The notes under the pieces: generated by a model
Seen by the model: only the letters and a program-made list of their open reading frames with translations
Databases searched by the model: none
Told to the model about the DNA's origin: nothing
Assembly (NCBI RefSeq): GCF_013368755.1
Contig: NC_049562.1
Coordinates: 4,464,001 to 4,528,000 of the forward strand
Reading direction: 5' to 3'
From: Talaromyces rugulosus
Lineage: Eukaryota; Ascomycota; Eurotiomycetes; Eurotiales; Trichocomaceae
Length of the DNA: 64,000 nucleotides
Program-made: the position numbers and the translations under genes
In this document: piece after piece, positions 9,767-54,261 of the stretch
Position numbering within the stretch: the stretch's first letter is position 1
Layout: the number at the start of each line of letters is the position of its first letter

Positions 9767-10083
9767 GCGAGGGTCATGACATGTATGACATACATTTCAA
9801 TGTTTGCACGAGTTACAATCATTTTCATAGTCTAATTAACGAGTAATTCACGAACCAGCTCTGCCACTTCATTACATTATATTGTCCATTGTATAGTAAT
9901 CAATTCGTTTGATACTTATAGTCATTCTAAGCAGATGAGTTCTCATCGTTTCAAATTATACGCTATCCATCTCATGCATCGCCTAGGCTTTGCTTGTTTA
10001 CATCGCTGATGTTGATAATCAATGAATAGAGAAAGAGAAAAAGAGAAAAAAGAAACCGGAATCATGACCCTTTCGTGTACAAT
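9767..10083. other. Convergent intergenic region
   Basis: About 320 bases between the 3' ends of the oxidoreductase and phosphoglucomutase genes. It is AT-rich with a purine tract at 10024-10060 and must contain both terminators. Nothing else was seen. Confidence 0.45.
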
Positions 10084-13091: not shown

Positions 13092-15196
13092 CTAGATAAA
13101 CTGTGAGTCCAAAAACTTATCCAGATCAAAGTCCAAGTCCCCTAGAAACCCTGTCAATGGCTCCGTAAATGTGTCCACGTCTATAGAGTCCATAGAATTA
13201 GTTTGTTCATTTTCGGGCGCGGTTTGGGATGAATGAACAGCAGTTGCCTGAGGTGGTATAGCAGCTATAACAAGACGATTAGTTGGTTCTATTCTACCTG
13301 TGTAAGTTGTTCTCCAAAGAAGAGCGTACCAATATCTTGCCGGACTCCCCCAGGCCGATCCATAAGGTGCTTTTCTCTCCAGCGAATAGCTATCTCATGG
13401 ACTACACCCGCGGAGAGTCTATGCTTGATCCGCAATCCAATGTCCCAATTTCCGTTAGAATCCTTAAACATGTTGTCAACATTCCACATCTGTTCAACAA
13501 TTGTCACTGCTCTATGAACTTTGTCGCCGTCTTCAAGAGAAACAGATTTCATGAAGTTGATCATTGCATGAAACATCAAGGAGCCCAGCTTTTCATCAAC
13601 ATAGCTTGCAAATGGTCCTTTGAGTAGCCGAAACATAAGAGCGTGTCCCATTTTTATTGCAAAAATGACGAAACGCGGACAGAAACTGCTGAGCTTATGA
13701 TTCTTTTCCTGCTCTCTTATAAAGGTGAAGACTTCGAGGACAGTGTTGAAGATCGTTTGACAAGTCTGTACATCGATACTCTCCCATGGTTTGAAAAAGT
13801 GCATGGCAAGAACTTCTAAACGGCAGATGGCCACATGAAAAATTTCCCAGTCCATTTACTTGTTAGTGTAATCCTGACAAAAAGTACCATGATTGATGGC
13901 ACTTACTTGATGAGGTGGTAGATTCTAGACCATCCAATTGACTGGTGATCATTTTCAAAACAGAATTTAAACTTTGCTCTTCCTGTATAGTCAATTTCTG
14001 TGAGTTGAATTGAACGAATATTCTCTGTGCGCCCGCCATGATATTGGAAAGCTGAAGCTGCACCTGTAAGTCGGTGGGAAGCTGTAACAATATGCTCTTG
14101 AGTTGTTCTTGGTCGGTATATGCATCGGCAGACAATAGAGGAGGGTATCCGCACCCGGAACAAGATCTGACGTAGCTGTTATGCGTTGGAAATCCCGAGG
14201 GGAGACGTATGGCCGCACCTTTGGTAGACAATAACAACGTAGACCCACAATCGTGTCCTCTCCACCGTGGAAGACTCGAAAAAACTAGACTGAGCTTCTA
14301 GTTTCGGTATCTCCTTGCCAAGATATGGGGTATGCAATCCGTTCTGCATTGCCATGTGAACAAGTGCACCGCTCAATACAAATGAGGGTTCACTCTGGTA
14401 GGGATTTGATGGGAACGGCCATTCCATAAGAAGTAGCACGGCTTCGATTACTTGTAGCGGCTTGGCCCGAGTGCTCAGCGAGGCTAAGACAAGCGGAGAA
14501 ATTCGAGGGGACAGTGCAGTTATGAGATTTGGATGGGCCAAGTTCTTTCGAGCACCAATGGAGACTATGACCCAAAAGAGGACCTGAGATTTCCCATATA
14601 GGAGATTCGGCGTAATTGTAGGATCAAGAACGGGAAGCAAGGGGTGGTAGTCACGGAAGAACAGCTTGAAACAATGATCTATGATAGAGGAGCCAATCTC
14701 GAGCCCATCAATAGATCTGGCCTCCGTCGCCTCGTAGTTCTGAGTGTCTTGAGTTCTTGTCACTTTTGAAACGTTAGCTTATCATAGAAGCCTTTCTACA
14801 GTACAATACTCGCCGGTAGTGGGCGGAGTGGGGCCACCTTGTAGCTCTCGTCGCAGTATTGAAGCTTCTTCCTCAAGCTCTTCCATACGCCTAGATATCA
14901 ATGAGATTTGCCAGACGGAATGGAAGATGATGCTTACTTTCGTTTGTGGACCCGATGGAAGGGGGCCGAATAGACGCAGGGTAGCTTCTGCCGTCGACAG
15001 CGCGAACAGGGTGTGCCAGACTCCTCAGAGCCATCGGAACATCGCATCTACTCACACCAAGATTAGCATCATCTAATCGTGAGACGCAGTCCCGCGAGCT
15101 ACTAGCTTTTTGCTGTCTGCACTCTACACAGGCTCTCTTTTTAGGGCCATCAGAGGACCCTCGTCGCGTACGCATGTTGAGACTGGGGGATAGCAA
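13092..15196 (-). CDS. Zn2Cys6 transcription factor
   Basis: A seven-exon model on the minus strand joins in frame to 579 residues: 15107-15196, 14938-15047, 14838-14890, 14219-14762, 13907-14175, 13298-13815 and 13092-13247. Exons 1 and 2 together give the binuclear zinc cluster C-x2-C-x6-C ... C-x2-C-x6-C (CVECRQQK then MRC, PCSRCRRQKLPC), followed by a basic stretch and a short coiled coil (MEELEEE). The middle is a fungal-specific transcription factor domain and the tail is acidic (DLDFDLDKFLD). Two splice sites are odd: the first donor is GC, and the fifth intron has a better-looking acceptor that would bring in an in-frame TAA. The gene may be intact or recently damaged. No target is evident. 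Confidence 0.7.
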
Positions 15197-37417: not shown

Positions 37418-39945
37418 ATGTCTATCTTAGATGACTTCCCTTACCAACATTCCCGGACTCTGGAGAAGAGCGAATTGCCAGAAGAATATTTCCACATCCT
37501 TCCTTTTCGAGTATCTAGGCCCAGAGAGGGGATGTTAGAAACTGCGAGGGCGGCGAAGTCTGAATGGGCCAAAGTTGTCGGCAAGGAGGATGCCCCTCTC
37601 ACTGCAGAGGAAATAGATGCCCCTTTGATGTACGTGATGCCAGAATGTCCTCCAGACATGGTGGCTTCTATAATGCGTTTTGGCACTTTTCTAGTGCTAT
37701 GGGACGGTACGTTTCCCGTCATAATCAATCGGAGCCCCCTGGTCTAACGAATTTAGATGAAACGGATGCTCTTGATGGCGAGAAAGTACGTTTAAATGTC
37801 GCCTACGAATGCGTATGTTGACAAAATATTAGCACAAAGTAATTACAGATGATTATTGCCTTGGTCTTATCTCAGAGTGCAAACTAGGAAAGCTTTCACC
37901 TTGCGACTTTGGAATCAACAGCCTATACCTTGATTCAGTTTTTCAATTACTGAAACAGACTACTGGCGATGATCATGCTTACAAGCGTGCGTTGCAAGTA
38001 TTTGAACATATCATGAGATCACAGCCTGTTCCTCCTCTTCATTCCGTGACCTTTGAAGAGTATAAAAAGGTTCGAACCGTGACTATTGCAGGAAAGTGAG
38101 TATCCATTCTTGACTTGCTTACTTGAAACTTTGGGCCAATATTCTATACTTACGGAAGATGACAGGCTGATCGAGGTTCTGCTACCTTCTATACATGGCT
38201 TAAGAATAAGCCAGGAAGAACAAGATTCCGTTTCATCAATAATTGAACAGGGCTGTCTGGCCGTGGGCTTAGCAAATGACCTTTATAGTTTCCCAAAAGA
38301 ATTTGAAGAGCATACCAAGAGCGGGAATATTGATGTAATACACAACGCAATGGCGGTTCTGATGTCGAATTACGGTTATACGGAAGAAGAATCCAAAGAG
38401 ATCCTGAGACAGGAGATTTTGTCTGTCGAGCGAGATGTTCTGGACGCATATGAGTCTTGGAAAAATTCTCCTGTATACAAGCCATCTGATTTGCGCCGCT
38501 ATATGGTTCTTGCAATGTTGGCCCTTGGAGGCGGATGTTATTACCAGGCCCGCTCACCCCGATACCACGGAAGAAAGCTCACTACGTCTGCGACAGATCG
38601 TGCTCAGCTAGTCGGGCGCAGCCATACAGCTTGGAAACTCCGAGGCTACTCTCCCCCGGAATCATTTAAGAAAGACGGAGCACTCTTAAATTCAGAAACA
38701 GAGTCTACAAGACCGGAAAAAGAAAAAGGTGAAGGCACTACTGCGTCAGAAACACCAGATATTCTAGCACCCTTTGAAAAGGCAATGGCAGAGCATGTTA
38801 GTATAAAAATGCACCTTATCATTCTAGTGAGGCTAACGTTACAAGCTATGCATGGCACCTTACAATTATACGAAATCCCTCCCTGGGAAGAAAACTGTCG
38901 GCAGATTAGTTGAATGCTTGCGGGTATGGTTTCAATTGCCTGATGATTCCGGTGACGTCATAGAGAATGTGATCAGTACGCTGTTTCACTCAACGCTTAT
39001 GTTGGTTATAATATCTTCTGCTAGTGTGTTACATCTACTGACCGTATCAATAGGATTGATGACATTGAAGATGGGTCAATTCTTCGGCGTGGGAAGCCAG
39101 CTGCACATACTGTATTTGGCATGAGCCAGACTGTTAATAGCGCAACGTATCTGTATTCTAGAGCAACCACTCAGCTGGAATTACTGAAAAGCCCTGAGTG
39201 CAGAAAAGTCTTCCTCGGTGAGTATACGGCCATTCTAGATTCTCTTTTCCCATTGATTCTTAGACACGTCACTAATACATGTAAAATAAGATGAACTAGA
39301 AACGCTTGCCTTCGGGCAAACTCTTGACCTCTACTGGAAATTCCACAAGACTTGCCCAAAAATCCAGGAATATCTCACAATGGTTGATAACAAGACCGGA
39401 GGATTCTTTCGAATGGCACTGCGGCTTACACAAGTCGAAGCGAAATCTGAGCCATGTCAGGATCTTTCTCATTTAATAACATTGATGGGAAGATACTATC
39501 AAATTCGGGATGATTACCTGAATTTGACGTCTCAAGAGGTACGTGTTATTTATTCTTTAAGTATACATATGAATTATTTATAACAAATGATCTATGAACA
39601 TACCGATATTAATGTGCCGCACAGTACACTGCCAAGAAAGGATTCTGCGATGATCTCTCGGAAGGCAAATTTTCTTTCCCTCTTATTCATACCCTGCAGA
39701 ATAGCCCGACAGCAGACGTTGTACGTGGCCTACTATTCCGTCGGGAAAATGGCACTGGAGATCTTACACCGGAGGTCAAGGCTTATATTGTCTCTGAAAT
39801 GAGATATGCAGGTAGCCTGACCTACACACGAGATACACTGACAGGCCTCTTTGACGCTATGATGGAAGGCTTGGAAAGAGCAGAGGCTAGTCTTGGTATT
39901 AATAAAAGGTTGAGAGCTTTCTTAATTTGGTTGAAAGTAGAATAG
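37418..39945 (+). CDS. Chimeric terpene cyclase / polyprenyl diphosphate synthase
   Basis: Eight exons join in frame to 695 residues: 37418-37706, 37757-37789, 37849-38095, 38166-38796, 38846-39000, 39054-39217, 39291-39538 and 39625-39945. The N-terminal class I cyclase domain has DDETD (residues 96-100), the NSE motif NDLYSFPKE (227-235) and the Arg-Tyr pair SPRYH (322-323). A linker rich in Glu, Ser and Thr spans about 345-390. The C-terminal prenyltransferase has [15 protein letters not shown] (first Asp-rich motif at 454-458) and IRDDYLNL (second, 580-584). Such fungal enzymes build GGPP or GFPP from IPP and DMAPP and cyclise it to a diterpene or sesterterpene. All metal-binding motifs are kept, so it looks functional. 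The intron-2 donor (GTTTAA) is weak, but it is the only one that keeps frame. The product cannot be told. It heads the cluster up to 54 kb. Confidence 0.93.
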
Positions 39946-40213
39946 AGCGTATTTGATTTTGACACGTATAAATTTTTTTAAACACTCTAAAATAATGTTG
40001 TCATTTTTTCAAAAGCTTCTTATTCTAGAGGCAGCCATAGCTACCCATGTTTTCATTAGGACTTTATCTCATATATTAAAAAAACCGTACTGATTAAATG
40101 TTAGTGATTATTAAGTTCTAATACACTAAGACTAAAGAATAACGAAGAAGGTCGGCGTTCACCATATTATTGAACCCTGGTCTGCTCACCCTAATCTGGC
40201 TGCGGTGATACAT

Positions 40214-40440
40214 GCATGAGGCTATACATGCCCCACTGCGATCAACAAATCCTTTGTTCTGGCTCACGGTGTGACAGAGACTGCTGTTTTGACTTCTCAT
40301 GTGATACATGTCTGCTAAAACTCCACTACCCCTCTTCTCATCACCTCTTCTCTATTGTCACTTCTCTCTCACGGTCTACATGATGACCAGCCAACCCCAT
40401 CAGCCATCGTCAACCAAGAGTTCCACGATGAACAATCTTG
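40214..40440 (+). pseudogene. 5' remnant of an HNH-nuclease locus
   Basis: Two short stretches match the region in front of and at the start of the HNH pseudogene at 58 kb: ctatacatgccccactgcg (compare 57540 on) and caaccaagagttccacgatg (compare 58123 on). The body of the gene is missing, and the sequence runs into repeat copy C. I read it as the promoter and first codons of a deleted copy. Confidence 0.65.
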
Positions 40441-40469
40441 ACAGCTGCACCAAAGACCAAATTATCTCT

Positions 40470-40755
40470 TTGGCAGTCAATCTATGGTTTATCACAGGCG
40501 TCAACAGAGCCATTCAACGGTACCCAAGTATTTTATAAATATGGAAGATGAAATACTCTAAAACCAGCTGGCTGCCTTCACAGATCCGACCAGATCTTGG
40601 GAGAGATTGCAATAAATTATCATTATCAGTTGATAAATTTATTTACATATAATAGATAAATCAATATTTCCTCTATTAATATTACATAGTCTATTATTGC
40701 ATGGTATGTTATTTCATCAGTAAACAAATAGCTATTGTGATTGTTCACGCCAGGG
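40470..40755 (+). repeat. Dispersed repeat, copy C (direct, downstream of terpene synthase)
   Basis: Matches copy B (36184-36560) over nearly its whole length and copy A (12181-12290) in its AT-rich core. It overlaps the last codons of the dehydrogenase gene on the minus strand. Together with copy B it brackets the terpene synthase gene. Confidence 0.85.
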
Positions 40756-42693
40756 CGATCCCAGTGAAGGCTCGATAATCGTCAGTATAAAGCTTTTCTT
40801 TCTTCTGGCCATCCAGACCGCAGTGGTAAATATTGCCACCAAGGTCTGTGATGTAAATGCCATTATTGACGAGATCCAACTTCAAGCCGATGGCTTCCTT
40901 GAAATGCCTTGAGAGAGACCGATATTTCTGAGCCTCATTCACTGAGGCAGGAAAACCAAGCACGTCTAGTTGGATCAAGTTCAGTGAGTTGCCACAGGGG
41001 ATTTCGCCCCGATCGGTCCAGTAGAGACGTCGAGATTGCTCATCTATTTCCAAATCCACCGGCTCTGGTAGGTCGTCGAGAATGCACTGGATATCGTCCC
41101 GTGTGCTCGCACATTGACCAGCGGGCATCGTGATATTGGCACCAAAAATGCGACCCTTGCCACCCTTGGAAGGACCTTTCTGAGACCAGTAGAATTTACC
41201 CAGGGTGGGAGCCACGGTAATACCAACGCACCACTTTGTTGCATCTTGACCGTACTCCTTGTAGGAGCCCGTCTCAATCACAGCCTCTAGATCGGATCCG
41301 TCAAAATTGCATCGGAAAACACGCAGCCCTTCCCGATCACAAAAGTAGACCTTTTGTGCTACACTATCAATGGTTAGTTGCTTCGGGGTATTGATAGTTC
41401 CCGGAGCGACGACGGTCTGGACGAGGCTGCCGTCCACGTTGGCCGAGTACACAGCGCCATCAATGTGGCCGGGCACGCCCATGCAGGTCCAAAACATGCG
41501 GCCATTAACGTGGTCAACGGCAATCCCGTCAGGCAGGGCCTGATTGCGAATGAGAACCTTTATTTTCCCCCCTGCCGTAAGTTCAACTATTTGGCCTGAG
41601 TTCAGACTTGGCTCAGCAGCGGAGAGACCCAAATCCAAGACCAAGATCTTTGGGTCTTTGGCAACGACACCATTCCTAGCCTTGGACTTGTCGTCTACTG
41701 GGGGATAAAGACCCCCAAGGGAACATTTGGTTCCCAACTTGCCATGGTTCAAATAGTTTTGTTGTAGAAAGTCAACGGTTTTCTCCGGGGATAGGCCGCG
41801 CTCATCAACATAGTGATGCTCGATGAAGGCCACCGTGTCGAGGCCGACGGCTTTATTCTCTGGTTAGTCGCACACTACGGCTGAAATTTGGAAGGCCGGT
41901 GGATTGTGACTCACCATCCATAGTCCGACAAGGAGCCATGCCTCCTTTGACAAACATTTCCATCCACATTGAGTCGATCTCCTCTGGAACAGAGACACCC
42001 TCTGCTAAAATACTCAAGATCTCGCGTTTAATGGCAGCCCAGAGACGGTTGAAAATGAAGCCTGTGGACTCTTTCCGGGCCAAATACGGCAAGGTAGCAA
42101 CCTCCTTCGAACGCTCAACAATAAATGGGAATATCGCGCTGTCAGTGCACCCATCAGTCATGATTTCCACTATCATGGACTGTGGAGGCATGTAATAATG
42201 CATATTTAAGATACGGGTTTTCGTATTCGCAGAAACCTTCGTGAGCATTTCAGAGGACTTGTATGAAGACGAGTTTGAGGCTAGAATACAGTCCGCAGGA
42301 GCCAGGGCTTCCAGCTCTGCGAATGTGTCAATCTTTAGCTGTATTTTCTCGGGGACAGCCTCAATAACCAGCCAGGCATTTTGAACAGCTCCTTTCAGAT
42401 GTTCAACTGCCTGTACCTTACCGGGTTTCTGCCCGGTCTTCTGGGAATATGACTCCACATTTTCCAGAATATATTCAATACCGTCCGCGCATTGCTCTGC
42501 GCTAGGGTCACGAAGAATCACATCATATCCACCAGATGCCCAAATACATCCTGTATGTAACGAGCGTAGTTAGTATTTATGCCTTTTCTTGGTGCTATCC
42601 GATTCGTTTACCTATGCGCCGACCAAGTACGCCCGCGCCAAGCACGGTAACAGGTCGGTTTCGATATTCCTCTGGTTGTTTCCAGGATTCCAT
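40745..42693 (-). CDS. 3-hydroxyacyl-CoA dehydrogenase fused to a YWTD-type beta-propeller
   Basis: Three exons, 42612-42693, 41915-42550 and 40745-41859, join in frame to 610 residues. Residues 15-190 form the NAD-binding domain of 3-hydroxyacyl-CoA dehydrogenases: GAGVLG (19-24), then VIEAVPEKIQLK and ILASNSSSYKSSEML with the usual catalytic-region Ser/Asn, and NMHYYMPP. The helical C-terminal domain follows (GFIFNRLWAAIKREIL) to about residue 270. The rest is a beta-propeller with repeated YWTD-like strands: RMFWTCMG, KVYFCDREG, KFYWSQKG, RLYWTDRGE and GIYITDLGG. Members of this dehydrogenase class act on hydroxy groups next to a carboxyl, CoA or sugar acid. In this cluster it could oxidise a terpenoid alcohol. 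What the propeller does is unknown. Confidence 0.9.
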
Positions 42694-43477
42694 TGTCGGT
42701 GAGTATATGGTAAATATGATTGTACAATGTAGACTTGATTAAGGAAGAGATTGGATCAGTGCGAGCTAGCAGAAGACGAAATGAAGGGATGATAATCAGC
42801 CCACTATATGGGAAAAAGATGGCGAGAAACTGGAGTCATATTCATCTTTATATACATGTTATTCTCAGTGTATATCGGCTTAAGACGGCATGCCGACTTT
42901 TAGCTGTACAGATGTGTGAAGGAAGGATGGGAATGCCGATTCCGAGGTTTCCATCCCTCGGTAGCGTTTCCTTTCCGACCGAGTCTGTACAGGAAAATTT
43001 CCTAATGGAGAATTAACTCGGAAAGGACGGATTGTGGGCCTCGAGTGGCGCAACGCATTATGTGTGGGCTTGGGACATTTTCCGTCCGGCTTTTGTTGGT
43101 ATCTAGGACCGAGGCAAATGTTGATAACGGAATGATACTGGGCTGCAGTCTAATCAGAAGATACCGTCATATACCTTTGCTCGTCATGCCGTTGATAAGT
43201 AAACCTTATGTGCGACATACTTGTGCCGTAGGTGGCAATTGGCTGCTAGTGTTTTCGACTATCGATACGAAGGCTGTGGTGTTCAGTGTGATGAGGAATT
43301 TGAAAAGTCGTTACCAATATGGGCATATTTATTCCGTGTTTAGAATATGTGATGGCGTATACAACAGTGGCTTTCCTCTTAGTTGGCAAAATTTTATACA
43401 ACAGGTAACAATCTAACAACATGATTTATAATACATAATAATAAACGAACATCCTGTATAACACGAATGTGCTTTCT
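42694..43477. promoter_or_regulatory. Promoter of the dehydrogenase gene with repeated CCGAG sites
   Basis: 784 bases. It holds an inverted repeat CCGAGG-N8-CCTCGG at 42942-42961 and further CCGAG/CTCGG sites near 42980, 43015 and 43109, two of them within TCGGAAAGG or its complement. Similar sites recur in the P450/b5 reductase promoter. They have the CGG half-site form of Zn2Cys6 targets. Binding by the cluster regulator is inference. Confidence 0.5.
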
Positions 43478-44951
43478 CTAGAAGCAAAAAATCTGATCAG
43501 TCATCTTTGAAATCGGTCCAGGAGCCTGGAATCCCATCTCAATCAAACCATTCTTCGACGCGTTAACCATACCCGGCGGACCACAGAGCATAACCTTTGT
43601 ATCAGGAGATGATCCAGGGAGCTTAGCAGCCATTACAGCGGGGGTCACATAACCTTTTCCGTAGGTCCAATCTTTTGGGGGGTGATCCAGCATGTACCAG
43701 AGCTTAAAGTTTCTAGGGTAATCGCGGGCAAATGCTTCTAGCTCCTGCCGCAAGAGAATATCCTCTTCAGTACGGTTGGCATAGATTAGGCTCACTTCCG
43801 TTGTATCAGCATCATCCTCGCAGATGGCGCGAATGAGCTGGTACATCGGGGTAATTCCAGTCCCGCCAGCAATCATCCCAATCTTTTTACAGAGACTGTT
43901 GTGATATTTCATTGCCCCTTTAGGGCCACGGAACTGAACTTGGTCACCCACTTTCAGATTAGCCAAATATTTCCCGGTAAGCAATCCATCTGGGTAGCAT
44001 TTGATCAGTAACTCGATCCTCCCCAAGTCCAAGTTGTTCGACGTTGGCGTGTATGACCTAGCAATAGCTTGTCCATCAACAGTAGCTTTAATAGCAACAT
44101 GCTGGCCGATTGGAAGCCCAACAATACCCTGTGGTCGCGGTAGTTGGAAGACAAAGCGGTATACATTGGGGGCCAGTTGGTCTTTTTTAACCAAGGGGAG
44201 GGCCTTGTATTCCTTCGGGTCAAGGTATCCCTTGAGAAGATGTGGATTTGGCTGTTTGGCGAGGCGAGATTTTATATGAGGGGGATATTTGGTGAATCCA
44301 GAGTCAATTTCAACCATTTTGGATAGTTTTGTTCCAACAAAACCGCCGATCGTAGCACATAGAAGGGTGGCAGCGACAAATCCCTTTGAAAAACCCCCGC
44401 TCAGGACTCCTCCATGAGAAAGGCTAGTCGTAGATCCCCAGTTGCTTAAAACCTGGGACACTTTCGCCAACGCCTCACCATCAACACGGCTTCGAGAGTA
44501 TAGGTAATACAGGAGTGCGCCCCCAAGAGATCCAGGTGCTAGTGCAGTTCCGATAGCAGAAAGAGGCTTCTGAGTGTTTTGGGTGGTTTGAGGCTTTTGC
44601 GGAATGAGCCGAACAGCCTTAGGCTTAGTGAACCCGATGGCATCTTTGACATTGCCAACCAAGTAGGATTCCAAGATATCATTGGCGTCTTTGGAATGGC
44701 CGACGTCCTCATATGCGGCGGTCGCATCGATCCCAGCAACATCAATCAGGACATCTGCACCACCGGGGTGATCTCTCACGTACTCGGTGATATCATACAC
44801 TATACAGTGGTGTTATGGGGCGAGCACTTGACTTAGGGGATGATGGACAGGGAGAAAGCAGCTTACCCTTTCCATGAATGATAATCCACAGGTCGCTTCT
44901 GCTATTGTGGGCTGCTACAGCCTCCACAGTGTATTCTTGCACTGTTGACAT
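43478..44951 (-). CDS. Cytochrome b5 / NADH-cytochrome b5 reductase fusion
   Basis: Two exons, 44867-44951 and 43478-44799, join in frame to 468 residues. The N-terminal cytochrome b5 domain (1-80) has both haem-ligand histidines, in HPGG (39-42) and VGHS (His63). A linker of about 100 residues contains two hydrophobic stretches (near 110-130 and 165-190) that could anchor it to the ER membrane. The C-terminal reductase has the FAD motif RSYTPTS (276 on), GGTGITPMYQ (NAD(P)H binding, 340-346) and CGPPGM (434-439), ending in a near-terminal Phe-Cys-Phe. It would carry electrons from NAD(P)H through FAD to haem. It is divergent from the P450 at 45464, sharing 512 bases of promoter, so it is likely its redox partner. 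Confidence 0.94.
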
Positions 44952-45463
44952 TGTTTCGCTATGTAGTATAGCAGCCGTTCCCAAATATGAGAAAATATCA
45001 ATTGTAAAGAAGATTCCATTGTGGCTGAACGGAGGTGAAGCCTTTAATAACTCTTGTAGGGAATTCTTGGGTCATCGACTTATACACCGGGTTTATGGAC
45101 AATGCTCGGTGAATAAAATTCAATACCGACTGCCGAGTTCCACGGAAAGAACCGGATATTCCCATTATAATTTTCTTTTCAGTAGACAAACCGGTCATAC
45201 AAGAACTTTTGTGCTTCTATAAAATTCGAGTTTCGTGGAAACCGAGGTAATGTGACCAATCGGAAAAGCTAATCGGACGTGATGCCGAGCTTTGTGCCGG
45301 TAATAATAATCATGACAGTGAGGAAGCCAAATAACCCGAATAGGCAATTCGGACCAGTCATAACATATAAAACTCTGCGTTTGTCTCGTCAGCGGTCTTT
45401 CTAAATTACTGACATACATTCATTGTGAGCATTGATGAATGATTGCGGATAATTACCTTCTCA
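44952..45463. promoter_or_regulatory. Shared divergent promoter of b5 reductase and P450 genes
   Basis: 512 bases between two divergent start codons. Motifs GCCGAG, ACCGAGG and TCGGAAA, like those in the dehydrogenase promoter, occur at about 45130, 45240, 45257 and 45282, and TATAAAA occurs at 45219-45225. Co-regulation of the two genes is likely from the layout alone. Confidence 0.55.
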
Positions 45464-47266
45464 ATGCCTGTACAAAAGTTCTATCTCCTCGGAGAGCCCA
45501 TCTCTTCTTCGAAAGACATCGATGTCGATCCTGCCATAAGCATCGATGACCTTCAACATCTCATCGCCGCTCACTTTGCCATAGTAGAGCCCAGTGGTTA
45601 GTCATCATACCCAGCCGATTTCTTCTTGATAATGAAAAGCCGACTACCTACTAATATGACATGCAGGCATTGGGTTCCAGACCGAGGACAACGTATTGAC
45701 CGACGTTCCCGAAATAATCTCAAGCAGCGGTTCCATCGCCCTGACGATAGATGGACATGCAGTACGGGAGCCAATGGGCCCCAAAGCCTTACCGTACGTT
45801 GGGAATTACTTTGAAGTGTATCCGGACCATCTGGGCAATCACCAGCGCCTGTTTGAACGATATGGACCAGTCTTCAAAACCACCAACATGGGCCGGGCAA
45901 CGTATCAAGTCAATGATCCGCAGCTTGCTGCTATTGTGTTTACCGAATCTGATTTTTTCACCAAAAAAATAAACGAGGCCCACCCTCTCTATGCCATCAA
46001 GACTCCAGTCGCAGGCGTTTTTCTTGGAGACACAGACACGCCAGAATGGAGGGCAGCCCATAAGTTTCTGCCCCCAGCCCTTGGACCCAAGGCAGTGCGT
46101 CACTACGCCCCCACCATGCAAGAAACCGTTGAAGATGCCTTCAAAGTTTTTGATGCCTTTGACGAGCAGGGAGAAGCATGGAATGTATATCAGTACATGC
46201 TCAAGCTTGGCTCACAAGCAGTTGGCAAGCTTACTCTTGGCTTGGATTTTGAACAATTCTCTAGCCCCGACGCACCTCTGCACGAGATGGTCCATTTAAT
46301 TGCTGAGGTCCTTGCACTGAATAAAAAGGTTACGTCAAAGGGTAATTGGTATGGCCGATTACCTTTTGGTGACCCACAGCGTCTGAAACAAGCAAGAGCT
46401 CGAGTGGAACAGTTAGTAGAGGAGTCGATTGAAAAGGCCGCCAGGGGTGGTATTGTCGACCTGCCGCTACAGGATGCGGCCTTGCAAGCCTCAAACATGG
46501 TAGGTAAGTAAAAGACATGCATCCATCTCTCATATTTAAGGGATCATTCTGAATTTTTTTTAATATTATTTTAGACTATGCTGTTCGTGCAGTCGATAAC
46601 GAGGGAGAGAAATTACCAAAGTCTAGTTTGGTATGGTCTATTCTTGTAGCAACAGGGGCTGGGTTCACTACTACGAGCTCACTGCTTTCCTGGCTTATCT
46701 ATGGTCTTGTTACCTATCCAGGCATGCAGGAACGCCTCTTACAGGAACTAATAGATCACGGGTTTGACGAGAATACTCACATCACAGCTGATCTTACCGA
46801 TCGCTTGGTGTTCCTAGACAAGTATATCAAGGAAACCCAGCGTCGACACAACCCATCCTTCCAACCTGGACGCACGGCAAAGGCGGATCTTATCCTACCA
46901 GGTGGCTACAAGCTGCCTAAAGATGCAGTCGTTATCCCTGCTTTGCATCACATCCACAATAATCCAAACTTATGGGACAACCCTAACCAGTTTGATCCGG
47001 ATCGATGGGATACGAACCAGGTGAAGCAGAGACACAAAGCTGCTTATATACCATTTGCCATGGGCCAGCGGATGTGCATTGGATTTAACTTTGCTCTTCA
47101 GGAAATCAAGGTATTCCTACCGAAGCTGATCTACCGATACAAGTTTACTCGAGAAGGAGATGCGCCTATCGAGTACGACCCAATGTTCCAGCTCATCCGG
47201 CCAACTAATCTATACGTCCGAACTACGAGACGAGTCAAGTGGCCTCCTCAGACAGCACCCGCATAG
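45464..47266 (+). CDS. Cytochrome P450 without N-terminal membrane anchor
   Basis: Three exons, 45464-45596, 45667-46503 and 46575-47266, join in frame to 553 residues. The oxygen-binding I helix has AGFTTT (352-357), the ExxR motif is ETQR (410-413) and the haem loop is FAMGQRMCIG with Cys491. There is no hydrophobic N-terminal anchor; instead about 80 extra residues (LISIDD-like, acidic and polar) precede the GPKALPYVGNYFEVYP start of the P450 fold. The sequence GVFLGDT ... WRAAHKFLPPALG resembles the soluble CYP102/CYP505 class more than typical microsomal fungal P450s, but no reductase domain is attached. It probably hydroxylates the terpene skeleton with electrons from the adjacent b5 reductase. 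Confidence 0.92.
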
Positions 47267-48092
47267 AAAATTGGAGTGGATTCCGCCGGGGAGAGGGGGG
47301 GGGGGGGGGGGGGGGATTTCTCATAACCCTTTTCCAGTCACACCTTTTCAATTCACTATTAGCAGTATAAATTAATACTTTAACTTTTATTAGAATTGAA
47401 TTTTTTCTTCTAGATAAGTACTTTCCAGCATAAGTGGTGATCAAGACTCCATTGAAAATTTGCCGAACTCTCCCCTGTAAGGGCCGTGGATTTATCATCG
47501 TTCATATTTGCTTTGACAGAACTCTAATACCACCAAACTTTGCAGCCTAGTGTAGCATCCGTACAGCACAGAAAGAGTAGACCTCTAAGTAGTCTTCTTA
47601 GCAGACTCTCAGCACGTTTAAATATTGAGCTGTAAAGGTATAGGAAGAAGAAGGAAATTTACTTCAATAAATGTTGTGGATGGCTAGATCTAATAGAAGA
47701 AATACACCTACGGAATATAATTCATATTAAAAATTGGATTGATATAATATTAGTCCAGCGTTCATCATGTCTATGAATGTATAAAGCTTCTAGATAAGAC
47801 ACCTGCCAAAAAGTTGGTAATTAATGTACTCAATCACATATTGCCTGTTAGTATACCACTAATACTTCCTTTTGGTTTGCGGATGGGCAACATATTACCT
47901 AATTCCCAGTGGGACCTGGAAGCCTGAGGCTGCCTTTTCAATGGTCTTTGCGGTGAGAAGAATCACGATAAATAATATATGTCATGATTCGAAGACAAAC
48001 CAGCAAATACTTAGAAACTCGCGCTAGAAGTCCATAAAATTACTACGACCCTGGGTTGATTGATATTATCTAGTTCCTCTACTGGTTGGCAA
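47267..48092. other. Convergent intergenic region with a 21-base G run
   Basis: About 0.8 kb between the 3' ends of the P450 and glucosyltransferase genes. It contains an uninterrupted run of 21 G at 47295-47315, 29 bases after the P450 stop, and otherwise AT-rich DNA. No gene was recognised. Confidence 0.6.
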
Positions 48093-51000
48093 CCTATATG
48101 CGTATTTCGTGCCACTTGTGAATGATTCTTTGCCGCTCCTCGTTTGACGCATCACACATTTCTTCAATGCCCTGCGTGATCCGTGATTGAATAATCCCTC
48201 TTAGTTTACTCCTGGATATATAGTTCCTGAGAGTCTTGTGTAACCCGTCAAGAGGAAAGCCTGCTATGGCGAGGATACCTCCATTACCAAAGGATGTTAG
48301 ATAGTACTTTCGGAGGTTGACAAATATAGCTGGACTTACCCGTCATCGGCTTGAAGAATGCACCACCAAGTCCTTTTCCAATTCCTGGTATCAGGCCTCT
48401 ACCCCCATGTTCTTGGACCGCTTCAACGGGCTGCATGATAATGCCAGTAATGCCGTCATAGAACTCTTGAGTGAATTCCTTTCAAGAGGTCAGCAGATGG
48501 TGACTTCCTGAGATGCCTTGGATATGCAGAATTACAGTGGTGGCAGCGCGAATCCCGCTTTTAGTGCTTCTGACAATGGGAAATTCTTTGACTGTTGAGT
48601 CATTGTACAATTTAGGCGCGTTATGAAACCCCTTTGTTAAACCGAGGGCAAAGTCGGTCGGAAGACGAAGAAAAAAATCAAGTAACTGTGTTGCAATTCT
48701 TCCGGTATAATGGGGCGTGTCGGTGAAGACTCCCTTGGTTCGTGCCGTCATTAGTTGCTGTTCCCGGTTAGGCGACTGATGGATAATCCCGATGTCGTTG
48801 TCTGTGTATTCAGAACCTATAACTGGAATGTTTCCAGCTGTACAACCATGATAGTAGCTGTTTACGCTTTCCGGGTACTCTTCAATCGGCACATCTGTCC
48901 CTGTTTCATCCTCCGAACTTACCCAAGTCACCTGTTTGGCTTTCCTGGAAAATGCGTTCGAAAAACGCTTCACGGCCCAACCGTGTAGTTTACTATTTTT
49001 GTATTCTCCCATGGGCTGCTTCCCAGTAACGAAGGATGATATATCCATTGGAATACGCACCATTCCGCCAACCATGTCAGTGACCAAGTCGTAAAAAGCC
49101 TCTGCACCGGCAGAGAGAGGGCCCCGAGGATCCCGGCCGGTGCTATACTCAAGTTGGTGGTACCTGGAATGGTTACAACAAGCCCAGGGCAATGTAGTCA
49201 GGAACACTTACATTACCAAATCATGCGGGTCAACTTGTCCCATATGTACCAAGACTGACGCTGCAAGCGCACTCAGCTTGATCCGTGAACGCCTGTGCCA
49301 CCATACAGCCGGCTTGTGTGGACAAATAGAGCAACGTAATTTTTCAGTGTTTAGATGGTGATGGAAGCTCCTGACCACGTTCTGCACACCGTTTTCCATT
49401 CTCATTTTCTTACCGATGTCCTCGGCATTGGTTTTGGTCAGAGGTTCGAGGGCCGTACTGATGGCAGAAGCCAAATCTGTTGCCGTGAGCCTTTTGTATG
49501 GCACCGGTGGTGGACCAGCACCTGCTTTGGCGACTATTGAACCCCAAAATGGCTGATCGCCAAAAAATGGTATAATCACTGTGGGGCGGCCAGCAAGCAA
49601 GCTGGCGGCAGTGGTTCCAGCACCTCCATGGTGTACCACGCATGAAACACGTGGAAAGAGCCATTCATGGGGGCAATTACCCAGAAGGAAAATGTCCCCA
49701 CGAGTCTCAGGTACACCCATGCCGATATTTGACCATCCCTTACTGATAATTGCTCGCTGGCCTGTCCGCCGGACAGCTTCAAAGATAATCAGTGTTAGAT
49801 TCACCGGCTCCTTGACAACTATTGACCCAAATCCAATATAAATTGGAGGTTCGCCTGCATCGAGAAACTCTTGCAGTGCCTGGGGTGCCCGATACTCCGT
49901 TTCCGAGGTCAAGAATTGAAAACCGCAAATGTCGATATTATCAGACCAGTCCTCGGGTTTTGGTAAGAGGGCGGGGGACCTGAAAACATCAAAAAGTGCG
50001 TTTAAAAGGGCTAGTGTAACTTTAACAAAAACGTACCAAAGGTAGCTGTACGGGATCTTTAGCTTTTGGATGAGACCGGGGACCTGACTGGAATCCAACG
50101 GATCCAGAGCAAGGTCCTTCTTGCGAAAATTGTTGATCAAATCACCAAGCCCATGCCAAATCATGATTTCCACCAAAGCATAAGAAGCAAAGTTTGCCAT
50201 AGATGTCTTCCCATCCTTCGATCGGACGCTAGCTAGAGGATGTGGGAATGAACGTGTTGGTGACCATGGCATCCTAACAGTCATTCAGCAGCTGCCTTGG
50301 AAAGTATTCCGTGGCATCATCGAACGAACGACTTACGTGAACATTAGATGGAGAGGGATTCCCAGCTTCTCAGCACAGCTGATGTGTGCAAAACTCGGTG
50401 GATTTGCAATAATAACATCGGCCACGAATGGTCGCGCATGGTTCTCAGTCGCATCGATTCCTATATTGTCGGGCATTTGACGCAGACCGGTTCCATCACC
50501 CATTTCAAAACAGGATCGCCAACAGCCGGAAAAAATGGCTTTCATTTCCCGGCGTCGTTGCCGAATCGCACCGCTTTTGATTGTGCTCAAACCCGGCATG
50601 AGGCCAGGGTTCTGGACCATGAAAGCCATTAACTGCTCCGGATCGCCCCCGATATCAAAGAATTCTAATCCACTTTCTCTTATTTCATCGCGGAACTTGA
50701 GATGTGTGGCGAGACGAACCCTATGGCTGTTTCTTCGAAGCTCCTTTCCCAGCGCAATAAATGGTTGAATGTCACCTCGTGAACCAACGACCTGAATGAC
50801 GATATTCAACTGAAGCGGGAATGGCTCCTTTTCTTCTTTTTGAAAATTGGAAGGTTCAATATTGCCATGAACCGTTTTCAGGCTTCTCTCAAGATATTGG
50901 ACCAGCTTTTTGAAGAAGGGCTTGTGCTCGTTGAATTTAATATTCAGCCGTCCATCATCTGCGAAGTGTCAATTCATCCATCATGTCCGATCTCCGAGGG

Positions 51001-51125
51001 AATAATAAGACCATACTTAGGATAAGATCGCCACTATCAAACTCCGGGTCCGCCGGCATACCACCTGTAGAAGGCATTGAAAGCTGCGAGTCCATCTCAT
51101 CGTCACGATTAGTTAGCAAGTCCAT
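48093..51125 (-). CDS. Sterol 3-beta-glucosyltransferase-like UDP-glycosyltransferase
   Basis: A multi-exon gene from 51125 to 48093, roughly 900 residues. After a polar leader, the GT domain begins with LNIVIQVVGSRGDIQPFIALG, the typical start of sterol glucosyltransferases. MPWSPTRSFPHP and SPALLPKPEDW follow. The donor-binding signature HEWLFPRVSCVVHHGGAGTT ... FFGDQPFWG has the His and Asp-Gln that hold UDP-glucose. An unusual C-terminal extension of about 300 residues follows (VTDMVGGMVRIPMDISSF, FYDGITGIIMQPVEAVQEHG), with repeated G-I/V-x-G helical motifs like those in the Atg2/VPS13 C-terminal region of fungal glucosyltransferases. It lacks the PH and GRAM domains of Atg26. Its place in the cluster suggests it glucosylates the terpenoid; a housekeeping sterol role is possible but less likely. 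Exon ends in the middle were not all fixed. Confidence 0.88.
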
Positions 51126-51810
51126 GTCTTCCGATACTGTGTACGCCTATACCATCCCCTTCCAACATAATTCCTTACAGTAGGTATATTCAAAGCTAGC
51201 ATGCGCCACAACAAACACCTCGAGATCTTGATTCTTGGCGGTTAGAGCGCTTTGATTACTCTGTGTCAATCGAAGCAGATCATTGTACAATAACCATACA
51301 GCCATCGATCACCTAATGTAACTTTGACTTTCCCATCTTTAAAGCCTTCACGCATTAATAAAGAACGAACTTGACTTTGGATACAGAATGACGACGTCAT
51401 CTTTGAACCTTGCTGAGAAATTGGGTTTGGCCACCCCGTCATATTTCCTCAGTGCAGCTACCTCGGGATCTGGCTCTATACCTCGGAACTGCTGGCAAAT
51501 CAAACACCCAGTTTTTCTCCGAGCGCGTACTCTATTTTGGTGAATATTATAATATTATTAATATTTAGCTATAACAGATTTTAATTGATTGATTTTTTTG
51601 TATGCCACTATTATTGTTATTATTAATTAGAAATTAAGACTATAAATCTATATAGTGTATGCGCTCGGAGTGTGGTGGGTCTATCATGTCCGCTGTATCC
51701 GTGATGTCGTCGTTGCCGAGGACTCTTCAACCAACGGTCATCCTGCCCTTTGCTCACCCCTGTCTGTTTAACAAGTTTGAACCTGGAAATTTGAGCAGCA
51801 GTCGTCTTTC
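51126..51810. promoter_or_regulatory. Divergent promoter of glucosyltransferase and regulator genes
   Basis: 685 bases between divergent starts. Part of it (about 51540-51650) is very AT-rich, and CCGAG-type sites occur near 51518 and 51716. It presumably drives both genes. Confidence 0.45.
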
Positions 51811-54261
51811 ATGGCGATCATGTCATCAACGAATCGTTCTCCTCGGACCCGCCGTCATAGATCTGCTGTTGCATGCCAGGCTTGTCGCCAACGCAAGGTA
51901 CGATGTAGCCTGACCGTTACTGGTGTGCCTTGCACCACCTGTACCCAAGACGGCTCCCAGTGTATTGTGAATAAAAAGCAAGCAAAAACGTAAGAAAACT
52001 CTAAGGAGGTATAGAATGTCTTGAAGAATGCTAAAAAAAGGCTGCGGGAAACTTTTCTTTTCAGGTCTAAACAGCTCGACCAGCTAGCACCTCGCTATCT
52101 TCACCCCAGTAACTCTGGGGCTGTTGACTCGAATCTTACCACCAACACGAACCGGACTTCTTTGAATTCTAGAGACCCTTCGCTTATGGGTGTCCAATCG
52201 GAACAAGTTACTCCTAACGTTACTAGGACTCCTTCGGATATTGGGCTAGCCAACATAGAAGACGAAGAACGCAATGGGCTCGAAATAGCATCGGCAGCCT
52301 TAGGACAACAAGAAATAATAGGGGAAGTTCCTTTTTATACTGGTAAAGAGAATGACATTACAAGGAATAACAGGAATAACATGTGGGCTCACTTTTCACA
52401 TAGGAGAGCGCACTGGGCCCACGTCAGCCCTACATATCTGCGCAGCCGACCAGCCGTTGCCCAGGCATTTCCTTATCCCAGCCCATAGAACGTGTCTCTC
52501 TGATGAGGACCGGGCTTTCCTCCAGAGAAAGGGTGTTTTTACACTTCCGGGAAAAAATACATGTGACAGCCTCGTTGAAGCATACTTTGTTCATGTACAT
52601 CCCATTTTGCCGGTGATTGAGGCTGATGTGCTTTTGCATCATCATCACACTGGGAAGCTGCAAGAGTACAACATCCTGCTCCTGTGGAGCCTTTTTTTCG
52701 TCGCTGCCAATGTATATCGCGGAATTGACGCCATGTATCTAATGAGACTAACTGAAGCTTGCAGTTTATTCCAACAAACATATACGAGCAAGAAGGATTT
52801 GCATCTAGGCGGTCAATGAAATTTGAGATGTACTCTCGTGCCAAGGAAAGAAATCTTTTCCCCTGCCTCAACATGCATGGACCTCTTAGACTAATTTTTC
52901 TTTTGTTAACAGTGCCTGTACAACAACGGTAACGAAAGAAACAAAATCGTGCTATTGCAATCTTCACTCCTAATGGGATTTTGGCACTCCGACATAGATG
53001 AACATGCACAACCGTGGTACTGGACAGGCAGCGCAATAAGTCTGTGCCAAATTCTTGGCCTACATCGAGATCCTAGCATTTCAAATCATAAACCCTCCAT
53101 TCCCAGTCGACAGCGATCTCTTTGGCGTCGTCTTTGGTGGTGTTGCTTTTTTCGGGATCGCTGGCTTGGTCTTTGCCTGGGGAGGCCACTGCGCATCAAT
53201 CTTGATGACTCTGATGTTCCCATGCCGGTTGCGGCGGACATGCTTTTTGACATCGATGTTCAACGAGAGCCCACTCTTACTTCCAAATTACCAAGCGACA
53301 TGGAAATATTAGCTGAATACTGGGTTATTCTCATTGAGCTTAGCCGCCAGTTAGGCAACATTCTGATTATGAATTATCGGGCAGCTCGACCTAGGCCAAC
53401 GCTAGATGAAGTTGAAGCCCTCGAGAAAGAGTTGTTACAGAGCAGACTTCCAGATCAATACGAAAGAGGTCTGACACGGATTTCACAATTTCATTCACGC
53501 CATATCCATCTACACTACCAGTTAGTTCCAACCACCCTTGAATGTTTTCTCTATTAATATAGAACGACAGAGCAATGTTGATTACCTTCTATCGGTCTTG
53601 GGGAATAGATTCTCCGGATGACCTCCCATCTACCGCAAAAGAAGACTGGAAACATCAAATGCAAGTAAGAGCCGACGCTGCTGCCTCTCAGACCAATGAA
53701 ATATTGGAAGCACTCGTTCAAGAACAACTTCTTGGATTTGCAGGGCCTATGACGTGAGCATCTCCAAGCCACCAGTCTCTTCTTTTGTTTTAGAGGTAGA
53801 GATATCCCTCTGCTACTCTAGACTGACTTGCATTCAAAATATCAAGACCACCGCTACTAGTTCCGGCGATGAAAACGCACTTATTTAAATGCAAATATGG
53901 TGATCCTCTCTCCAAACGTATCAAGCTTAAAAAGCTTGAAGTGTGTATGCTGGTCATGGAAGAGCTCCAGAAGACATATACTGTCGCTTCGGTATATCGT
54001 GCCATTTTTATAAAGGCTATCCAACAGGTTTTCCCGGATTACTCAGCCCCCGTGGCATTGTATAGTTCTGCAATCAATGGTGCCGCCGTTTCCGATACTC
54101 AAAATCTTGCTGAAAATCGGCTTGCAGGGGAGGAAGTGCCGGATCATTATGCCCCGCTCAGTGATGCCGAAATTGATGTTCTAGATGAGAGTTATTTTAT
54201 GCAGAACTTGATAGACGAGGCTTCGGATTTCAGTTTTTGGGAGACATGGAATCAAGCTTGA
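51811..54261 (+). CDS. Zn2Cys6 transcription factor, likely cluster regulator
   Basis: Seven exons give 683 residues: 51811-51989, 52065-52342, 52404-52711, 52765-52845, 52913-53520, 53571-53753 and 53847-54261. The zinc cluster CQACRQRKVRC ... CTTCTQDGSQC (about residues 23-50) is preceded by Arg residues, as usual. A polar, Asn/Ser-rich stretch follows, then the fungal transcription factor domain (YFVHVHPILPVIEAD, LLWSLFFVAAN, WYWTGSAISLCQILGLHRDP, LWRRLWWCCFFRDRW). The C terminus is acidic (DFSFWETWNQ), like an activation region. One junction is abnormal: the donor after exon 4 reads GA, not GT, although joining gives the expected RAKCLY. It is divergent from the glucosyltransferase and is the natural candidate to control the cluster. 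Confidence 0.85.

Follow-up and report, generated by a model that had tools for sequence, protein, structure and literature searches.

A putative sesterterpene synthase of Talaromyces rugulosus beside a recurrent set of dehydrogenase, cytochrome b5 reductase and P450 genes

Six genes stand side by side at positions 37418-54261 of the window, a 64,000-nucleotide stretch (C2:4464001-4528000) of the Talaromyces rugulosus genome (35.76 Mb, six contigs), and the initial annotation took them for a compact, apparently complete terpenoid cluster with its own redox pair, glucosyltransferase and regulator. Relatives of two of these genes, those for a dehydrogenase-propeller fusion (DH) and a cytochrome P450, are separated by a single gene in several other fungi, including a Talaromyces for which no relative of the terpene synthase was matched, and the apparent single terpenoid pathway is therefore likely two things. 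The reading that we favour, with moderate confidence, is that a chimeric terpene synthase (TS) makes a C25 terpene alone, beside a separate three-gene oxidation unit, here called the trio, made up of the DH, a cytochrome b5/b5 reductase fusion (b5R) and the P450.

Gene content of the locus

The order of the genes is TS (+ strand), DH (-), b5R (-), P450 (+), a glucosyltransferase (-) and a Zn2Cys6 regulator (+). The features that carry the argument are the following:

37418-39945, + strand: chimeric terpene synthase, spliced model of 8 exons and 699 amino acids, PF19086 and PF00348; PbSS-like, likely a sesterterpene synthase
40745-42693, - strand: 3-hydroxyacyl-CoA dehydrogenase fused to a YWTD-type propeller, 607 amino acids, PF02737 and PF00725
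43478-44951, - strand: cytochrome b5/b5 reductase fusion, 468 amino acids, PF00173, PF00970 and PF00175
44952-45463, no strand: divergent promoter region between b5R and P450, 512 bp of sequence
45464-47266, + strand: cytochrome P450 (TRUGW13939_04020), 553 amino acids, PF00067, I-helix AGFTTTSS
45464-45752, + strand: predicted N-terminal beta-grasp (ubiquitin-like) domain of the P450, residues 1-73, with the intron 45597-45666 inside

Spliced models and Pfam domain matches (taken at E 0.01) agree for each of the six gene types, upholding the positions and identities first given to them, and internal stops are absent from all six models. The P450 model, the sole one compared against a deposited protein, is identical to TRUGW13939_04020 (P0164). 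Chance occurrence of the six genes is ruled out by their clear domains and by frames that are intact except at one splice site. Their co-location is real; membership in one pathway is a separate claim.

Linkage of DH and P450 relatives in other fungi

Relatives were taken from the best 120 of 1022 matches to the DH, the best 120 of 826 matches to the P450 and the 43 matches to the TS at E 1e-40, each search having scored only about 8000 candidates. DH and P450 are separated in the window by one gene, b5R. Their relatives are two locus tags apart in eight of the ten species with gene-ordered tags in both best-120 lists (Helicocarpus, Penicillium canescens, Scytalidium, T. atroroseus, P. nucicola, P. 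antarcticum, P. coprophilum and P. fuscum), the ordered status of tags being our own judgement and JGI DRAFT and PENCOP tags being excluded. P. canescens and Aspergillus hancockii each have one further, distant P450 (N7499_002503 and BBP40_001419). Outside the window, the middle gene was seen by name as a b5 reductase in A. fumigatus only.

The linked genes also diverge in a correlated manner. Across 31 pairs selected because they are linked (that of the window, those of the eight species above and of A. hancockii, and 21 pairs with contigs of equal length), the DH and P450 distance matrices correlate with a Mantel r of 0.824, or 0.807 given genus, and none of 5000 permutations, free or within genus, reached r 0.824. 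P. crustosum, a second P. coprophilum assembly and the species with DH and P450 on different contigs were omitted from this set. The three genes probably make up a separate unit, one that recurs in many fungi. The redox pair that the initial annotation had assigned to the synthase as its own is thus not private to it as regards DH and P450, relatives of which lie near each other in other species, for example T. atroroseus.

Protein features and proposed mechanism

The dehydrogenase-propeller fusion recognized at the outset is borne out by PF02737 and PF00725 and by a propeller that has no Pfam name, matches the YWTD propellers of LRP in sequence and is seen as a fold in the structure model of P0001, a 73% relative of the window DH. 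The DH positions taken as catalytic Ser, His, Glu and Asn are kept, and the catalytic motifs are intact. A 362-amino-acid open frame on a 31-kb JGI metagenome contig (P0108) shares 94% identity with the last-exon part of the window DH onwards, which points to a closely related locus in a metagenome.

The P450 I-helix AGFTTTSS (residues 352-359, window 46658-46681) is without the usual acid and is invariant in the 120 listed relatives, the deposited window protein included (an alignment of 121 rows in which the window protein counts twice, as model and as P0164). Residues 1-73 are predicted to be ubiquitin-like by the order of strands and helices in the model (predicted local distance difference test, pLDDT, 76-88 over the block). 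Much of the P450 domain is poorly modelled (mean pLDDT 62), and use of the model was confined to the N-terminal block; the BM3-like fold of the P450 domain has two comparisons behind it, one of them made with low-confidence stretches left in. Six names among the listed matches are Penicillium P450s deposited as 'alnD', a name borne by a P450 of the asperlin cluster, with 74-75% identity to the window P450, and the one in the tree (P0254) falls in a clade separate from it (support 100, starred). The names FAC6B23 and FAC4N16 were not found in the literature matches listed for alnD, which concern axillary surgery ('ALND'), and TRUGW13939 locus tags were likewise missing from the 25 listed of 87 papers matched for them.

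Together the three enzymes likely form a self-sufficient unit that is driven by NADH and carries out hydroxylation followed by oxidation. In the proposed scheme, NADH would reduce the FAD of the b5 reductase and the fused b5 haem would hand electrons to the P450, which would hydroxylate a C-H bond of the substrate. The dehydrogenase would then oxidise the new alcohol with NAD+, returning NADH, while the propeller may dock the substrate or a partner. The Zn2Cys6 gene may be the trio's own regulator, as is suggested by the C6 gene beside the P450 in A. fumigatus. No function or substrate of the trio was found in the open-licence literature.

Related gene sets

The full-length trio is present in one copy in the T. 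rugulosus genome. A diverged set at C5:1722134-1739302 comprises a DH-like gene whose frame ends before any propeller, a b5 protein that lacks a reductase and a P450 with 42% identity, which points away from the b5 gene and whose I-helix AGFTTSSS is also without the acid. A nearby frame (L043 7201-7689) looks by eye like a ketosynthase. The set suggests that the association of DH, b5 and P450 is old and can occupy biosynthetic regions.

The best-120 lists hold A. fumigatus relatives of the DH (66%) and the P450 (78%). In the available part of PMC10455693 the consecutive genes Afu5g10040, Afu5g10050, Afu5g10060 and Afu5g10070 are named as a C6 factor, a P450, a b5 reductase and a 3-hydroxyacyl-CoA dehydrogenase, and all four stand in one azole-induced list of up-regulated genes (log2 fold changes of 2.09, 2.25, 2.37 and 1.99). 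We read this list as that of the pan-resistant isolate with isavuconazole, because its values for abcE (4.31) and Afu5g02260 (2.87) are those stated in the text for that isolate and treatment (PMC10455693). As far as these excerpts go, T. rugulosus shares with A. fumigatus the three enzyme types, their relative order and a C6 regulator on the P450 side, a likeness of names and order. Unlike in A. fumigatus, the glucosyltransferase lies between P450 and regulator in T. rugulosus. The T. rugulosus trio adjoins a terpene synthase, whereas the A. fumigatus set is annotated with an NRPS-like (nonribosomal peptide synthetase-like) gene, the cluster that holds it being called NRPS-like in the part available of PMC4208449.

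The terpene synthase and its likely product

In the TS, Terpene_syn_C_2 (PF19086, residues 88-282) is followed by a polyprenyl synthetase domain (PF00348, residues 405-631), and both the terpene synthase and the prenyltransferase domain carry their metal motifs, so that its description as a chimeric synthase with all metal motifs holds. The best PDB match is the sesterbrasiliatriene synthase PbSS (9wyx) with 501 bits across both domains, followed by stellatatriene synthase with 279 bits, and fusicoccadiene synthase scores 225 bits. The two-domain order and the metal motifs are those of PbSS and its relatives AuAS and AcAS; the product of the T. rugulosus enzyme is deduced from its similarity to PbSS. 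PbSS and AuAS have been placed in clade I, a group made up solely of sesterterpene synthases (PMC9303889). Since PbSS is far ahead among solved structures and clade I is purely sesterterpene, the product is likely a C25 terpene derived from geranylfarnesyl diphosphate. A fusicoccadiene-type diterpene, as the name of the T. islandicus homologue would have it, is less likely in view of the 501 bits to PbSS against 225 to fusicoccadiene synthase; of the C20 or C25 product first proposed, C25 is thus the likelier. The available text of PMC9605422 states that most fungal sesterterpenes come from single synthases, without later modification.

One cluster or two

Among the 43 synthase homologues, the nearest are those of T. 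islandicus (81%) and T. proteolyticus (68%), for neither of which a characterisation came to our notice, and a tree of 25 of the 43 homologues and the window protein unites them with T. rugulosus (99, starred; this and the following trees were made by a quick method, with support from the Shimodaira-Hasegawa-like approximate likelihood ratio test, SH-aLRT, only). T. islandicus is absent from both the best-120 DH and the best-120 P450 lists, the P450 of T. proteolyticus lies on another contig than its synthase, and T. atroroseus, which has a linked DH-P450 pair, has no synthase among the 43 matches at E 1e-40. In all eight species common to the synthase list and at least one trio list (T. proteolyticus, A. 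stella-maris, A. mulundensis, A. undulatus, A. cavernicola, A. oleicola, A. venezuelensis and A. nanangensis), relatives of the synthase and of the trio are on contigs of different length and hence on different contigs. Linkage of tailoring genes to the synthase was thus not found for DH and P450 in these relatives, as judged by indirect comparison. Occurrence of the dehydrogenase, P450 and glucosyltransferase apart from the synthase in relatives had been named as speaking against a cluster; it is seen for the first two, DH and P450, which are near each other in those species.

The tree positions differ as well. In the DH tree (37 of the 120 listed matches and the window protein), T. rugulosus falls in with two Onygenales, Emmonsiellopsis and Helicocarpus (95, starred), and in the P450 tree (33 of the other 119 and P0164) its partners are Helicocarpus and A. 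bertholletiae (91, without a star). The position of A. bertholletiae in the DH tree does not follow its P450. Other Talaromyces stand apart from T. rugulosus, namely T. atroroseus in both trees, T. pinophilus in the DH tree and T. proteolyticus in the P450 tree. The G+C content at third codon positions (GC3) is 0.42 in the TS, 0.44 in the regulator, 0.49 in the glucosyltransferase and 0.49-0.54 in the trio. Taken together, these indirect lines (contigs, trees and GC3) make common inheritance of the six genes as one cluster unlikely; recent recruitment is compatible with them. With no synthase linkage in relatives and with discordant trees, the case for a compact and apparently complete cluster is weak. 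Our results gave no sign that the terpene is oxidised or glucosylated, and none that it is left unmodified.

Glucosyltransferase, regulator and flanking sequence

The remaining two genes of the locus are:

48094-51125, - strand: sterol-glucosyltransferase-like GT28 enzyme with a VPS13-like C-terminal stretch, 895 amino acids, PF03033
51811-54261, + strand: Zn2Cys6/Fungal_trans regulator, 687 amino acids, PF00172 and PF04082, with one non-canonical intron

The core of the glucosyltransferase matches the sterol 3-beta-glucosyltransferase 5xvm/5gl5 in the PDB (about 250 bits), which we take to be yeast UGT51, and its catalytic region aligns with that enzyme over residues 92-186 and 217-533. It differs from UGT51 in a C-terminal stretch (residues 790-860, window 48202-48475) that resembles VPS13 lipid-transfer proteins. 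Full-length Atg26/UGT51 has PH and GRAM domains N-terminal to the glucosyltransferase core, and neither domain is among the Pfam matches of the T. rugulosus protein at E 0.01. A paralogue with 56-58% identity is found on C5. The fourth intron of the regulator (52846-52912) begins with GA and ends with AG in the model, and no frame-keeping donor with GT was found by eye; the regulator gene may be mis-spliced, broken or misread.

Two 8-mers recur in three of the four promoter regions, and no CGG/CCG dyad is shared by more than two of them, both counts being without a shuffle control; as a shared regulator motif, nothing convincing was found. Between the genes, inspection by eye showed stretches rich in A and T as well as a long run of G, at window positions of about 40600-40700, 47600-47800, 51540-51660 and 47298-47316. 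Elsewhere in the window (13289-14763), minus-strand frames resemble, again by eye, pieces of another fungal transcription factor.

Alternative readings

Several observations weigh against a separate oxidation unit beside an independent synthase. The six genes are contiguous, a glucosyltransferase and a regulator are typical of clusters, and the GC3 of the regulator is closer to that of the TS than to that of the trio. The DH-P450 spacing deviates in two of the ten tagged species, the genes being five tags apart in A. hancockii and 493 apart in P. crustosum; in A. bertholletiae, A. nomiae and A. avenaceus the listed DH does not share a contig with the listed P450, and Emmonsiellopsis, whose DH is the nearest, does not figure among the best 120 P450 matches. 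A close synthase is present in only one of the eight species compared for linkage, T. proteolyticus, the others having 42-52% identity, and comparisons of locus tags and contigs are indirect, several of the Aspergillus assemblies being fragmented. The roles of the catalytic DH residues are those that we assume from human HADH. Afu5g10050-10070 are equated with the listed relatives by name and order. The portions available of the literature annotate Afu5g10040-10130 as a predicted cluster to which no product is assigned (PMC5144971, PMC3689640), list AFUA_5G10040 without 10050-10070 (PMC4208449) and name single members elsewhere, 10070 in PMC6978690 and 10040 in PMC8062887. As three studies name single members in the parts available, co-regulation of the A. 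fumigatus set is therefore not general.

The contiguity of the genes would be explained if the locus were a young but true six-gene terpenoid cluster, in which the synthase joined the trio in the T. rugulosus lineage and the trio, glucosyltransferase and regulator now serve it, so that the product would be a sesterterpenoid that is oxidised and may also be glucosylated. There are known sesterterpene clusters that include a P450, such as AuAS with AuAP450 (PMC9605422, in the part available), recruitment is possible given trio-like sets beside an NRPS-like gene (A. fumigatus, in the accessible sources) and a probable polyketide synthase (PKS) frame (C5), and the recurring 8-mers are in keeping with it. 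We nevertheless find this rather unlikely, as no linkage of synthase and trio was seen in relatives, their tree positions and GC3 differ and the dyad is shared by at most two promoter regions. We think it quite improbable that trio, glucosyltransferase and regulator form a locus that handles sterols or membrane lipids in response to azole-like stress, with the synthase as a bystander. The sterol 3-beta-glucosyltransferase match with its VPS13-like stretch and the azole-induced A. fumigatus list (in the part available) point that way; however, no glucosyltransferase is named among the A. fumigatus set genes in the accessible text, and each of the four genes occurs once in the available main text of PMC10455693, which amounts to one isolate and treatment. 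Moreover, we know of no sterol substrate for these enzymes. The preferred reading thus remains that of a synthase beside a separate oxidation unit.

Implications

It is routine to assign the genes that flank a backbone enzyme to it as tailoring enzymes. For the locus described here, comparison with other fungi suggests that, of the five neighbours of the synthase, three are a separate unit, which corrects the guess of a single pathway. The synthase is likely of a known kind, a sesterterpene synthase, and the trio likely a recurrent oxidation module for which no function was found in the open-licence literature. Going further, and only as a speculative and on balance unlikely suggestion, the DH-propeller, b5R and ubiquitin-like-P450 could constitute a portable, self-contained NADH-recycling oxidation cassette that is handed on among fungi as one piece and joined to different pathways, next to a sesterterpene synthase in T. 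rugulosus, to an NRPS-like gene in A. fumigatus and, in diverged form, to a PKS. If the unit is portable, the borders of fungal clusters would be drawn differently, and the unit would provide a compact NADH-driven P450 system, which may work without a separate P450 reductase.

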